Shown in pieces: positions 49,473 through 53,859 of a DNA stretch of 64,000 bases (positions are counted from its first letter, which is position 1; each line of letters opens with the position of its first letter). The notes under the pieces are model-generated. The model searched no databases. It was not told the DNA's origin and was given only the letters and a program-made list of their open reading frames with translations. This stretch comes from Leucobacter sp. OLIS6 (lineage in GTDB: Bacteria > Actinomycetota > Actinomycetes > Actinomycetales > Microbacteriaceae): NCBI RefSeq assembly GCF_002752355.1, contig NZ_MRAV01000016.1:1-64000 (forward strand), written 5' to 3'. Made by a program: the position numbers and the translations under genes.

Positions 49473-49964
49473 ATGGGCTTCTTCACCAAGGAACAGACCC
49501 CCGCTGCCGGCGGCGGAGCGCTCGCTCCGCTCTCCAAGGACCGCGTCAAGCACGCCCTCGAGAACGCCGGCTGGCAGTACCGGGTCGATTCCGACGGAGA
49601 CATCGGAGGCGGCTGGGAGAACGGCTTCTTCTACTTCTTCGTGAACGGCGAGAAGCAGGAGCTCTTCTGCGTGCGCGGCACCTGGTACGGCGAGCTCAGC
49701 CAGGCCGAGTTCGAGCGCGCGCTCGTCGCCTGCAACACCTGGAACACCGAGAAGCTCTGGCCGAAGACCTACGCCCGCCCCGACGACGAGGGCAAGGTGC
49801 GCGTGCACTGCGAGCTCAACGTCGACTACGAGCACGGCCTCACCGACGAGCAGCTCACGCAGCACCTGCTCTGCGTGATCAACACGGGCGGCGCCTTCTT
49901 CGAGTCGCTCAACGAGCAGTTCCCCGAGGCAGCGGCGGCGGTCGCCGCGCGCAGCGCCGAGTAG
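49473..49964 (+). CDS. YbjN-domain protein
   Basis: A 163-residue cytoplasmic protein of the YbjN / type III secretion chaperone-like fold. The pattern DRVKHALENAGWQYRVDSDG, then FFYFFVNGEKQELFCVRGTW and a C-terminal HGLTDEQLTQHLLCVINTGG with FESLNEQFPEA, is typical of actinobacterial YbjN proteins. GAAAGGA precedes the ATG. It leads a three-gene operon with Hsp90 and a TPR protein, 54 bases ahead of the Hsp90 gene. Such folds bind other proteins, so an adaptor role is plausible but not shown. Confidence 0.8.
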   Translation: MGFFTKEQTPAAGGGALAPLSKDRVKHALENAGWQYRVDSDGDIGGGWENGFFYFFVNGEKQELFCVRGTWYGELSQAEFERALVACNTWNTEKLWPKTYARPDDEGKVRVHCELNVDYEHGLTDEQLTQHLLCVINTGGAFFESLNEQFPEAAAAVAARSAE

Positions 49965-50018
49965 GCGAGCGCCAGAGCCTCCCCCCGACCGCTCAGCTCC
50001 CCTTCTCAGAAAGACCGC

Positions 50019-51845
50019 ATGTCCGAACGCTTCCAGGTCGACCTCACCGGCATGGTCGACCTGCTGTCCCGTCACCTGTACTCGGGACCGCAGGTCTTCG
50101 TGCGCGAACTGCTGCAGAACGCCGTCGACGCGCTCACTGCACGACGCGAGCTCGATCCGTCCGCTCCTGCGACGGTCCGGATCACGACCGGCACCGACCC
50201 GGCCGGCCGGGCGACGCTCAGCGTCGTCGACACCGGCATCGGACTGACCGCGGCCGAGGCCGCCGAGCTGCTCGCGACCATTGGCCGGTCCTCGAAGCGC
50301 GACGCGGACCTGGGGCTCGGCCGTTCGGAGTTCATCGGACAGTTCGGCATCGGCATGCTCGCGGCGTTCATGGTGGCGGACGAGATCGAGGTCCGCTCGC
50401 GATCGGCACGGCCCGGTGCCGTGCCGATCCGGTGGACCGGTCGGGCCGACGGCACCTTCGACGTCGAGGAGCTGGGCGGTGCGGAGGTCGAGGTCGGCAC
50501 CGCGGTCCGCCTGACCGCACGCAGCGACGCCCGGCACTGGCTCGCGAACCGCACCGTCGTCGACCTCGCGACCGAGTACGGCGGGTTCCTGCCGTTCGAC
50601 GTCGCCGTCGAGGTGCCGGTCGAGGGCGTCGGCCCCCTCTGGCAGCGGATCACCGCGCCCGAGCTGCCCTGGCGCGCGGAGTACCCCGTGCCCGGCGAGC
50701 GCGAGCGCGCGCTGGATCGGGCCTGCGAGTCGCTCTTCGGGTTCACGCCGCTCGGCCGCATCGACCTCGATCTGCCGGTCGCCGGCGTCAGCGGCGTCGC
50801 CTTCATCCTTCCGCAGGCGGTGTCCCCCGGCAGCGGCCAGCACCGCGTCTACACGAAGCGCATGCTCCTCGGTTCGCGCGTCGACCGGATCCTGCCCGAC
50901 TGGGCGTTCTTCACCCGCGCCGTCATCGACGCCGAAGGGCTCTCGCCGACGGCGTCGCGCGAGCAGCTGCACGACGATGAGGTGCTCCAGGCCGCCCGCG
51001 AAGCACTCGGCACCCAGATCATCGCCTGGGCCGCGCGCACGCTGACCAGCGGATCGCGGCTGGCCGCCGATTTCATCCGGACCCATCACCTCGCGCTGCG
51101 CGCGCTCGCGGTCACCGAGCCCGACATGCTCGAGCTCGTAGCGCGCGTGCTCCCCTTCGAGACCACCGACGGCCCCCTCACACTCGCCCAGGTCGCGGAA
51201 CGCGGCGAGGTCGTCTACTCGACCACCACGGAGTCGTTCCGACGCGTCGCCACCGTCGCGCGCGCTCAGGGGCTCGTGGTGGTCAACGCGGGCTACGTCT
51301 ACGACCTCGACCTGCTGCAGCAGCTGGCCGGGCGGCCCGGCTGGAAGGTGCGCGAGCTCTCGAACGCCGACCTCGTGCACGTGCTCCGCGTGCCCGATCT
51401 CGAGCGCGAGCTGGAGGTCGCCGACGCCGTCGCCCGTTCGCGGGACCTGCTCGAGAGCGCCGACTGCGACGTCATCGTGCGCAGCTTCGAGCCGTCGGCC
51501 GTCCCCGCCATGCTCCTCCGCGATTCCGCCGGCGAGCAGCGCCGCGACCTCGACCGCGAGCGCTCGGCGGCCCCCGGGCTCTGGAGCGGCCTCCTCGACG
51601 CGTTCTCCGATCCCGAGGTCAGCACCCGTACGCGCACCCTCGTGCTCAACGACGACTCGGCGGTGGTCCGCAGGCTCCTGGCGGCCCCGGTCGGCGGCGT
51701 GTTCGACGCCGGACTCAACTCCCTCTACCTCTCGGCGGTGATGCTGGCCGGCGACGGCCTGCACTCGGCCGAAGCCGTCGCCCTCGGCGATGCGCTGAGC
51801 GTGCTGCTCGACGCGTCGCTCGGCGGCGATCCCGACACCGCCTGA
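50019..51845 (+). CDS. Divergent Hsp90-family ATPase
   Basis: A 608-residue Hsp90/HtpG homologue. The GHKL ATPase is intact: RELLQNAVDAL (E30, N34, D37), DTGIGL (D71), IGRSSKR and FIGQFGIGMLAAFMVADEIE (105 onward), then VEVGTAVRLTARS as the last nucleotide motif. Residues about 220-400 fit the middle domain (LFGFTPLGRIDLDLPV). The C-terminal region differs strongly from HtpG and there is no MEEVD. AGAAAG precedes the ATG. Its place between YbjN and TPR genes is unlike htpG, which usually stands alone. Its clients are unknown. Confidence 0.88.
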   Translation: MSERFQVDLTGMVDLLSRHLYSGPQVFVRELLQNAVDALTARRELDPSAPATVRITTGTDPAGRATLSVVDTGIGLTAAEAAELLATIGRSSKRDADLGLGRSEFIGQFGIGMLAAFMVADEIEVRSRSARPGAVPIRWTGRADGTFDVEELGGAEVEVGTAVRLTARSDARHWLANRTVVDLATEYGGFLPFDVAVEVPVEGVGPLWQRITAPELPWRAEYPVPGERERALDRACESLFGFTPLGRIDLDLPVAGVSGVAFILPQAVSPGSGQHRVYTKRMLLGSRVDRILPDWAFFTRAVIDAEGLSPTASREQLHDDEVLQAAREALGTQIIAWAARTLTSGSRLAADFIRTHHLALRALAVTEPDMLELVARVLPFETTDGPLTLAQVAERGEVVYSTTTESFRRVATVARAQGLVVVNAGYVYDLDLLQQLAGRPGWKVRELSNADLVHVLRVPDLERELEVADAVARSRDLLESADCDVIVRSFEPSAVPAMLLRDSAGEQRRDLDRERSAAPGLWSGLLDAFSDPEVSTRTRTLVLNDDSAVVRRLLAAPVGGVFDAGLNSLYLSAVMLAGDGLHSAEAVALGDALSVLLDASLGGDPDTA

Positions 51846-51870
51846 CCGGGCACCCGAGAAAGGAACTCCG

Positions 51871-53859
51871 TTGGCCAAGGACATCGACCACGAACTCCGC
51901 ACCCTCCGCCGCCTCCCCTACGGGGTCGCCCGCACCTCGGCCACCGAGGCCCTGGTCCGCCGGCTCGAGACCGACGGCCCCGAGCGCCAGCTGCCCCAGG
52001 CCCTGCTCGATCTCGTCGAGGCCTACACCTTCGCGAACCTGGGTAAGCAGGGCTTCGTCGCCTTCGCCCGCACGCTCCGCCTCTGGGACTCGCGCCCCGA
52101 GCTGTTCGACGAGGCCGACGAGCGCAACCTGTTCTGGGAGTTCAAGTGGATCGCGGGCGACCTGCCCGACTACCCCGAGATCACGGCGGAGCAGGCCGAC
52201 GCGTTCCTCGCCGACATGTCCCACCGCTTCGCGGTCGCGGGCAAGGGCGGCTCCTCCGTGCGCATGTCGCGCTTCCGCTGGGCCTGGCACACCGGCAGCG
52301 CCGACATGGAGCAGGCGCGCATCGACTGGATGACGGGCGAACGGGACGAGCTCGAGGACTGCGCGACCTGCACCATCGGACAGCAGACCGACTACTTCAC
52401 CGAGCTCGGCCGCTACGAGGAGGCCGTGGCGATCGGCAGGACCTCGACCGGCACCTGCAATCTCGAGCCCACCCGCACCATGCACGCGCTGGCGCTCGCC
52501 GCGCTGCGCGCGGGCGACGCGGAGCTCGCCACCCGCAGCTATCGCCGGGCGGTCGCCACGTACTCGAGCGCCGAGGGCAGCGATTTCGCCCCCGCCCACG
52601 GCCAGGCCTTCGAGCTCCTCGCCATCGGCGGCGCGCTCGATCGAGCGCTGCAGCAGCTGCGCACCGACACGGGCCGCCTGCTGCTCGATGCCTCTACCCC
52701 GCTCTTCCGGCTCCGGTTCCTGCTCGGAGTTCTCTCGGGGCTCTCGGCGAACCTCGACCGGAGCGAGCTCCCCACTGGGCTCAGCACCCCCGCCGCCCCG
52801 ACCCTCGGTGAGCTCCACGCATGGGTGCGCGCCGAGACGGAGGCGCTGGCGGCGCAGTTCGACCGCCGCAACGGCACCGGCTACTACGCCGACCAGGTCG
52901 CCCGGGCGCTCGGCAGCCGGCGCACCGAGCACGAGCTGCTGCTCGGCCGCCTCGGCGATCCCTCCCCCGAGGCGTCCGACGAGGACTCCGACGCTCCGTC
53001 CGACGCGCCGACCGAGGCCGTCGGCGATAGCGGGGACCCGGGCCGACCGGACGTCGGCGACCTTCCGGACGATTCCCGACCGGAACCCGCGAACGCCGAC
53101 GAGGCGTACGCCCGAGCCGAGACCCAGGCCGGCATGCGCGCGTATCTGACCGCGTCCGACGACTACGCGCTCGCGGCGACGTTCGCACAGGCCGAGGGCC
53201 GGCTCGAGTTCGCCGGGATCTGCTGGGCCGAGGCAGCGAAGGCCGCGGAGCTCGCCGGCGATGCGAGCGCGGCGCACGAGCGCTACACCGCCGCACTCCC
53301 CCGTCTGGAGGCCGCCGGCTCCGAGGCCGCCCTGATCGCGCAGGTGCTCGTCGGCTGGGCCCCCGTCGCGGCGCAGGTCGCGGACTTCACCGAGCTCGTC
53401 GCGCGCCTGCGCGCGGCTCTGGCACGCACCGAGGAGCACGCTCCCGAGCCCGCGCTGACCGAGGAGCTCACCGAGAGCCGCCGGATCGAGCACCTGCTGA
53501 CCCTGGCCACGCTGCGCGACACGCTCGCACGGAGCCTCGGTGCCGCGGGAACCGCGACCCGGGCGGATGCGCCCGAGCACGCCGAGGCGGTCTCGGCCGC
53601 GCAGCGCGCCGGCGAGGAGTTCGCCCAGACCGGCCGGATCTCGGACGCCGCCCACGCGTTCTGGCTCGCGGGGCGGTTGCAGCGCTCGGCCGGTGACACC
53701 ACGGGCGCCATCTGGTCGCTCGAGTCGGCCTTCGAGGGATTCACGGTCGCGCGCCAGACGAACGAGCGGGCCCACGCGGCCGGCGAGCTCATCGAGGTGC
53801 TGCGCGAGACCGGGCAGAGCGACCGTGCCGACGCGGTGATCGCCGAGCTCGGAGCGTAG
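51871..53859 (+). CDS. TPR-like helical repeat protein
   Basis: A 662-residue all-helical protein with TPR-like repeats in two blocks, residues about 165-350 and 410-655 (for example YFTELGRYEEAVAIGRTS and EFAGICWAEAAKAAELAGDA). An acidic Asp/Ser/Pro linker (361-409) joins them. No signal peptide or catalytic motif is seen; there is a single CATC at 164-167. The start is TTG at 51871 with AAAGGA upstream, 25 bases after the Hsp90 gene. TPR proteins are classic Hsp90 co-chaperones in eukaryotes, so partnership with the adjacent Hsp90 is a reasonable inference. Confidence 0.8.
   Translation: MAKDIDHELRTLRRLPYGVARTSATEALVRRLETDGPERQLPQALLDLVEAYTFANLGKQGFVAFARTLRLWDSRPELFDEADERNLFWEFKWIAGDLPDYPEITAEQADAFLADMSHRFAVAGKGGSSVRMSRFRWAWHTGSADMEQARIDWMTGERDELEDCATCTIGQQTDYFTELGRYEEAVAIGRTSTGTCNLEPTRTMHALALAALRAGDAELATRSYRRAVATYSSAEGSDFAPAHGQAFELLAIGGALDRALQQLRTDTGRLLLDASTPLFRLRFLLGVLSGLSANLDRSELPTGLSTPAAPTLGELHAWVRAETEALAAQFDRRNGTGYYADQVARALGSRRTEHELLLGRLGDPSPEASDEDSDAPSDAPTEAVGDSGDPGRPDVGDLPDDSRPEPANADEAYARAETQAGMRAYLTASDDYALAATFAQAEGRLEFAGICWAEAAKAAELAGDASAAHERYTAALPRLEAAGSEAALIAQVLVGWAPVAAQVADFTELVARLRAALARTEEHAPEPALTEELTESRRIEHLLTLATLRDTLARSLGAAGTATRADAPEHAEAVSAAQRAGEEFAQTGRISDAAHAFWLAGRLQRSAGDTTGAIWSLESAFEGFTVARQTNERAHAAGELIEVLRETGQSDRADAVIAELGA

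Follow-up and report, generated by a model that had tools for sequence, protein, structure and literature searches.

A candidate bacterial Hsp90–TPR system: an Hsp90 paralog with a near-obligate TPR partner gene, joined by a YbjN-family gene in one actinobacterial clade

The locus

Do three adjacent genes of a Leucobacter genome, encoding a YbjN-family protein, an Hsp90 and a long helical-repeat protein, belong to one system, and which of them form its core? We address this question starting from the window, that is, the whole stretch of 64,000 nucleotides of Leucobacter sp. OLIS6 (NZ_MRAV01000016.1) that was analysed. A preliminary description of this DNA, made from the sequence alone, reported a three-gene run with its coordinates and intergenic gaps, all of which we confirmed:

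49473..49964, + strand: YbjN-family protein (PF10722), 163 aa, probable lineage-specific third member
50019..51845, + strand: Hsp90, 608 aa, of the NF010683 type and not HtpG, with complete N-M-C architecture
50106..50120, + strand: part of the Bergerat ATP site, Hsp90 E30 to N34, both invariant in 43 rows
50958..50960, + strand: Hsp90 middle-domain R314, invariant in 43 rows
51871..53859, + strand: TPR/helical-repeat protein, 662 aa, constant Hsp90 partner (52/53 linkage; model pLDDT 93.3)
51871..52926, + strand: N-terminal MalT-like helical domain of the TPR protein, residues 1-352, shared with the 320-353-aa Firmicutes partners
52357..52470, + strand: TPR protein motif D163-C164-x2-C167 ... 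C196-x2-E199-P200 (C164, C167, C196 and P200 in 99/99 rows of alignment A4)
52927..53085, + strand: acidic linker of the TPR protein, residues 353-405, partly disordered in the model
53086..53856, + strand: C-terminal TPR superhelix of the TPR protein, residues 406-662

The genes lie on one strand, separated by 54 bases (YbjN to Hsp90) and 25 bases (Hsp90 to TPR). They are flanked by rpoB, which runs on the opposite strand, and by a PAP2-like gene (both identifications made by eye); among the loci compared, these and the other flank genes of the window were found at L062 only. Neither a CIRCE-like nor a HAIR-like site was found in the window at up to three mismatches, and a promoter and terminator scan returned one promoter-like and one terminator-like match, neither of them useful.

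A complete Hsp90 that is not HtpG

The Hsp90 is matched by NF010683 ('HSP90 family protein', PRK14083; NCBIfam) at 682.9 bits over residues 1-603, against a cut-off of 455, and scores 163.5 bits with the HtpG equivalog NF003555, under the cut-off of 371. Profile and fold comparisons match it over its full length, with N-terminal, middle and C-terminal domains all present. Residues E30, N34, D71, G75, G107, F109, G110, G112 and R314 are present and invariant across 43 aligned rows; we assume for the first eight their usual roles in the Hsp90 ATP site, and take E30 to be the catalytic glutamate of RELxxN and R314 the arginine of the middle-domain SRE motif. The protein thus models as a complete Hsp90 with its ATP site intact, bearing out the intact Bergerat site of the preliminary description; the divergent C-terminal half proposed there gives way to an ordinary Hsp90 fold in both profile and fold matches. 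It ends in LDASLGGDPDTA (final residues GGDPDTA), and MEEVD is absent.

A search of the same genome with PF00183 found no Hsp90 besides that of the window and no HtpG, and a search with PF00012 found DnaK. The second, canonical htpG that the preliminary description proposed to look for is therefore not found, and its suggestion of a client set distinct from that of HtpG is moot in this Leucobacter host because no HtpG was found there. Both kinds of Hsp90 coexist in other actinobacterial genomes (for example, G081 and G249).

Linkage of Hsp90 and the TPR gene across Actinobacteria

Applying the NF010683 cut-off to a class-wide draw of 394 genomes, our own included, we found the family at 53 places in 46 genomes. 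At 52 of the 53, a gene of the TPR family lies 3' of the Hsp90 gene on the same strand, at a distance of 20-120 bases by model ends; at the remaining place (G381), the next gene encodes a 328-aa protein scoring 27.3 with TPR_2, for which the cut-off is 27. Looked at from the other side, 52 of 59 TPR places in this draw are linked to an NF010683-type Hsp90. The 7 unlinked places, one of which is another segment of a gene already counted as linked, count against our best reading, and this tally covers the five best first-look candidates per genome, with unlinked copies perhaps undercounted. A contig scan with the TPR alignment yielded 65 loci, with Hsp90 present at 65/65, always on the same strand. 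In a phylum-wide draw (396 genomes), 10 of the 11 NF010683-type loci that were fetched had the TPR neighbour, compared with 0/18 HtpG control loci, which reach 666-873 bases downstream; the 10 downstream ORFs scanned from these 18 loci included none with a TPR model match. Chance adjacency is ruled out by the 52/53 versus 0/18 counts.

The neighbourhood search across Actinobacteria that the preliminary description proposed thus reveals linkage of the Hsp90 and TPR genes (52/53) that is wider than had been guessed, reaching two Firmicutes; conserved linkage, the absence of which would have spoken against the idea, is clearly present, and the full trio is conserved in one clade. We also looked for a further core gene: the 25 largest groups of flank genes included none that was general across the non-Streptomyces loci. 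The 23 Streptomyces-type loci share one common neighbourhood. Separately, Corynebacterium stercoris carries a duplicated module with a single Hsp90 (YbjN-TPR-YbjN-Hsp90-TPR; L088, 3375-10194), and three partial Hsp90 loci were seen on viral contigs.

The trio within Leucobacter

A genus survey of 60 genomes, including our own and 36 same-genus relatives, placed NF010683 above cut-off in 17, namely, our own and 16 of the 36 relatives. In all 17, the Hsp90 gene has YbjN immediately before it and the TPR gene immediately after it, on the same strand, although in one (G026) the contig stops inside the TPR gene. Leucobacter coleopterorum (G023, L082; C1:1281702-1285880) has the full trio with Hsp90 in four pieces and the TPR gene in two, so that either the copy is decaying or the sequence is poor; the same could hold for G709, in two pieces, and G626, with one TGA. 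One genome (G010) has a fragment of Hsp90 only, on a 3.3-kb contig, and weak NF010683 matches occur in G011 (24.5 bits) and G032 (21.1 bits). Among the 36 relatives we found neither a TPR protein without Hsp90 nor an HtpG-strength match to NF010683. In three other Leucobacter loci (L176, L177 and L178, from G028, G016 and G019), a module-like YbjN stands alone, with Hsp90 and TPR not found in 10.5 kb, among neighbours that include malate synthase, PTS, ArsP-like and antiporter genes.

The trio stays together in at least four distinct Leucobacter neighbourhoods, and in the Hsp90 tree described below, the copy from Rhodococcus triatomae pairs with that of Leucobacter celer at 100/100, nested inside the Leucobacter rows. 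Together, these observations suggest that the trio travels as a movable unit. For the two Rhodococcus copies, the nearest Leucobacter by identity agrees only loosely among the three proteins.

Related pairs in other phyla

In Listeria, the Hsp90 gene is followed by two tandem genes for TPR proteins of 324 and 320 aa, and in Paenibacillus by a single one of about 350 aa. All these partners are matched by our HMM of the TPR N-terminal domain, among whose 27 training rows they are themselves included; tblastn with the window TPR protein also finds the Listeria partner (E 8e-6). At one Listeria locus (L147, 9870-10616), an SMI1/KNR4-family gene follows the Hsp90-TPR-TPR run. We take lmo0942 to be the Listeria copy of this Hsp90, which fits the fri neighbour seen at the locus. 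In the available portions of two Listeria papers, lmo0942 is mentioned and not studied (PMC3534079, PMC10393277).

Ten plasmid records covered at least 80% of the Hsp90, and in all eight that were examined a TPR or TPR-like gene lies downstream, directly in seven and after a gene for a 232-aa protein in Pseudanabaena. The Pseudanabaena Hsp90-like protein (L151, 5213-9314) is 877 aa long, of which some 240 fall outside the Hsp90 part; the 232-aa protein has a segment that by eye resembles one in it, and immediately upstream, on the opposite strand, there is a TIR-domain gene.

More distant Hsp90 homologs in P. aeruginosa, Xanthomonas and Salmonella score 277-293 bits, under the NF010683 cut-off, and have a TPR-like partner of 764-774 aa with Pfam TPR matches that are likewise under cut-off. 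The same gamma-type pair occurs in E. coli SE15 (L184, 7001-11144) as an Hsp90-like protein, annotated as an ATP-binding protein, and an unnamed 768-aa TPR-like protein, between fdhD and a YiiG-family gene beside frvR; it is found in 245 of 5,426 E. coli genomes, each match covering at least 80% of the two-gene query. Profile comparison of the gamma-proteobacterial partner with the actinobacterial TPR family gave E 1.3e-4 at a probability of 53%. For a Nonomuraea relative of the gamma-proteobacterial partner, Hsp90 was not detected within 4 kb, which counts against our best reading.

An Hsp90 lineage split from HtpG

In the Hsp90 tree, 41 TPR-linked rows, comprising 36 with the C-x2-C family and 5 with other helical partners, are split from 18 HtpG rows at 100/100; several branches are long, and the deeper order is unsure. 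Chen et al. (2006) recognise three groups of bacterial HTPG (A, B and C); in the text available, their results assign copies from the Actinobacteria, the Firmicutes and the gamma-proteobacteria to A and C, a phylum spread that their discussion words more loosely, and give two HTPG genes for S. coelicolor (PMC1525184). Given the split from HtpG and the match of phyla to group C, the window Hsp90 probably belongs to that group, the reference sequences of which lie outside our tree. According to a figure legend in Press et al. (2013), hsp90B and hsp90C were ignored throughout that genome-scale co-evolution analysis (PMC3708813).

Anatomy of the TPR protein

The window TPR protein passed no Pfam or NCBIfam cut-off. 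Its model (pLDDT 93.3) is a superhelix of paired antiparallel helices, as in the TPR fold, and its N-terminal half is similar to domain III of MalT, a regulator. The 662-residue helical-repeat protein with an acidic linker, as it had been described initially, thus stands: the linker has 17 D/E and 3 K/R among 53 residues, with pLDDT <50 at residues 361-374, 376-378 and 383-388. The two halves differ in conservation. Counted over the 95 rows (of 99) in which both are present, the N half has 49 positions out of 352 with at least 95% conservation and the C half 18 out of 257; mean pairwise identity is 53% versus 44%. The first ~350 residues are the part that the partners share.

Within this part lies a C-x2-C...C motif: C164, C167, C196 and P200 occur in 99/99 rows, and the same four residues are invariant in a 16-row alignment that includes Streptomyces, Listeria and Paenibacillus. 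In the model, C-x2-C opens one helix and the third cysteine, 29 residues on, lies in the loop behind the next, short helix, an arrangement that suggests a metal or redox site.

Hsp90 and TPR distances correlate at r = 0.963 (780 pairs), as shared descent alone would also produce. An attempt to match domains to partners by distance correlation used 40 rows, those of the window and of 39 of the 42 non-Streptomyces loci, leaving out L078, L082 and L085; there, Hsp90 went with the N half and YbjN with the C half, but the match was dropped as not robust: without Rothia, the YbjN result was reversed (1/500 subsamples) and the Hsp90 result weakened (346/500), so neither trend is used here.

YbjN, a clade-specific member

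The window YbjN is matched by PF10722 at 82 bits (Pfam gathering cut-off 22), and the sole PDB sequence matches lie at E 0.86-0.87. By HMM, 41 of the 42 non-Streptomyces loci have a YbjN gene upstream of the Hsp90 gene in the same orientation, the exception being Canibacter (L085), compared with 0/23 Streptomyces-type loci; none was detected at the Listeria, Paenibacillus or G313 loci. The conserved YbjN-Hsp90-TPR module of the preliminary description therefore needs to be split: the Hsp90–TPR couple holds, whereas YbjN is not core, and on our best reading of its distribution would be a lineage-specific third subunit added in one clade. Overall, the initial linkage observation proved stronger than stated, and the parts that fell away were YbjN as a core member and the divergent C-terminal half.

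Natural TPR-YbjN fusions exist in P0117 and P0248, in both of which YbjN comes after the N half, and in P0120 and G260, and TPR and YbjN also occur without this Hsp90 in Actinomyces oris (13 kb read) and in G260, which counts against our best reading. The A. oris locus (L155, 4055-8892) encodes two YbjN-like proteins and a 1011-aa C-x2-C TPR protein, with Hsp90 not found in 13 kb, and is possibly an Hsp90-free version of the module. Considering the Hsp90-TPR linkage, the fusions and the Hsp90-free combinations together, the TPR protein looks like a hub, accompanied by Hsp90 nearly always and by YbjN in one clade. The only paper found to name both YbjN and Hsp90 was the AmyR paper.

Discussion

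That the Hsp90 and the TPR protein act in one process appears close to certain from their genomic association. The alternative, that adjacency reflects operon history alone with no joint action, is very improbable: the linkage is 52/53 over many genera, the trio stays together in different neighbourhoods, the pair recurs in more than one phylum, and TPR-YbjN fusions exist. As to what this process is, our main reading, to which we assign a probability of roughly 60%, is that an ancient Hsp90 paralog has in the TPR protein a dedicated partner, which would act as its co-chaperone or client adaptor. We infer physical binding, delivery of clients and a division of labour between domains: the Hsp90 of the NF010683 lineage would cycle as an ATP-driven clamp, the conserved MalT-like N-terminal domain of the TPR protein would dock on it by a route other than MEEVD, and the variable C-terminal TPR array would recruit clients or further factors, making a two-protein Hsp90 machine with YbjN as a third subunit in one clade.

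The relationship could also run the other way, with the TPR protein (together with YbjN) as the end product and the Hsp90 as its private maturation chaperone; the TPR protein might then be, for example, a redox- or metal-sensing regulator or scaffold acting through C-x2-C...C. The invariant cysteines fit this account, as do the similarity of the N half to MalT domain III and the TPR proteins without Hsp90 nearby, at 7/59 places and in A. oris. However, the minimal Listeria and Paenibacillus forms (320-353 aa) show helical repeats only, and the window protein has no matched enzymatic or DNA-binding domain; we regard the private-client account as rather unlikely and prefer the co-chaperone or adaptor role. 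Less probable still is a conflict or anti-phage module in which Hsp90 would set a threshold or act as a switch and the TPR protein would do the sensing. The trio is patchy in the genus, occupies several genomic sites and has apparently moved between families, the Hsp90 ATPase region weakly matches the TmtA and REase_II models (PADLOC 2.0.0; 27.3 bits at best), and DefensePredictor figure legends name TPR and HATPase domains in validated or predicted systems (PMC13092281, in the parts available). Yet neither YbjN nor the TPR protein matches a PADLOC 2.0.0 model at E ≤ 1, the loci have no constant effector gene, the 23 Streptomyces-type loci keep their one neighbourhood, and all 245 of the 245 E. 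coli matches are chromosomal, the one inspected adjoining fdhD and frv genes; a term search of the Aravind-group survey of chaperone-based conflict systems found no mention of Hsp90 (PMC7159879).

For the co-chaperone or adaptor reading, the wider picture toward which we lean slightly, on comparative grounds, is that of a widespread and so far unrecognised bacterial Hsp90-TPR system, composed of a group C Hsp90 and a near-obligate C-x2-C...C TPR partner, with YbjN added in one actinobacterial clade. The cysteine site could perhaps be a zinc site or redox switch, and YbjN is perhaps secretion-chaperone-like. We found no description of an Hsp90-TPR pairing of this kind, in a literature search that most subscription papers lay outside. 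If the picture is true, Hsp90-TPR teamwork arose outside eukaryotes without the MEEVD signal, and some bacteria would own a dedicated Hsp90 helper, a trait usually credited only to eukaryote-like cells. The near-invariant TPR partner would give the group C paralog a first concrete, testable function, and TPR genes so far without a name, in Streptomyces, Listeria and Paenibacillus and at a greater distance in E. coli, would become candidates for one system. It would also provide an independent second case of an Hsp90 working with a TPR protein, and so help to tell which aspects of Hsp90 regulation hold generally.

Comparison with known systems

HtpG (NF003555) shares the fold and the ATP-site residues of the window Hsp90 and aligns with it end to end, but it forms a separate clade, and its loci lack the TPR neighbour (0/18). 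The NF010683 family was named from sequence, and in the text available from Chen et al. the TPR partner does not appear (PMC1525184). According to the accessible part of one source, orthologs of Hop, Aha1 or p23 are not apparent in eubacteria (PMC8082187). Relative to the YbjN/AmyR family, which the window YbjN joins through PF10722, the peculiarity here is its tie to, and sometimes fusion with, a TPR protein beside Hsp90. Eukaryotic TPR co-chaperones feature a three-repeat clamp domain, whereas the N half of the partner described here is MalT-like. In the eukaryotic system, MEEVD on Hsp90 recruits these co-chaperones, whereas the window Hsp90 has no MEEVD, a difference that counts against our best reading. 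The analogy to eukaryotic Hsp90 and its partners Hop, FKBP51/52 and PP5 is accordingly one of how the two might work: in both, an Hsp90 is paired with a TPR protein.
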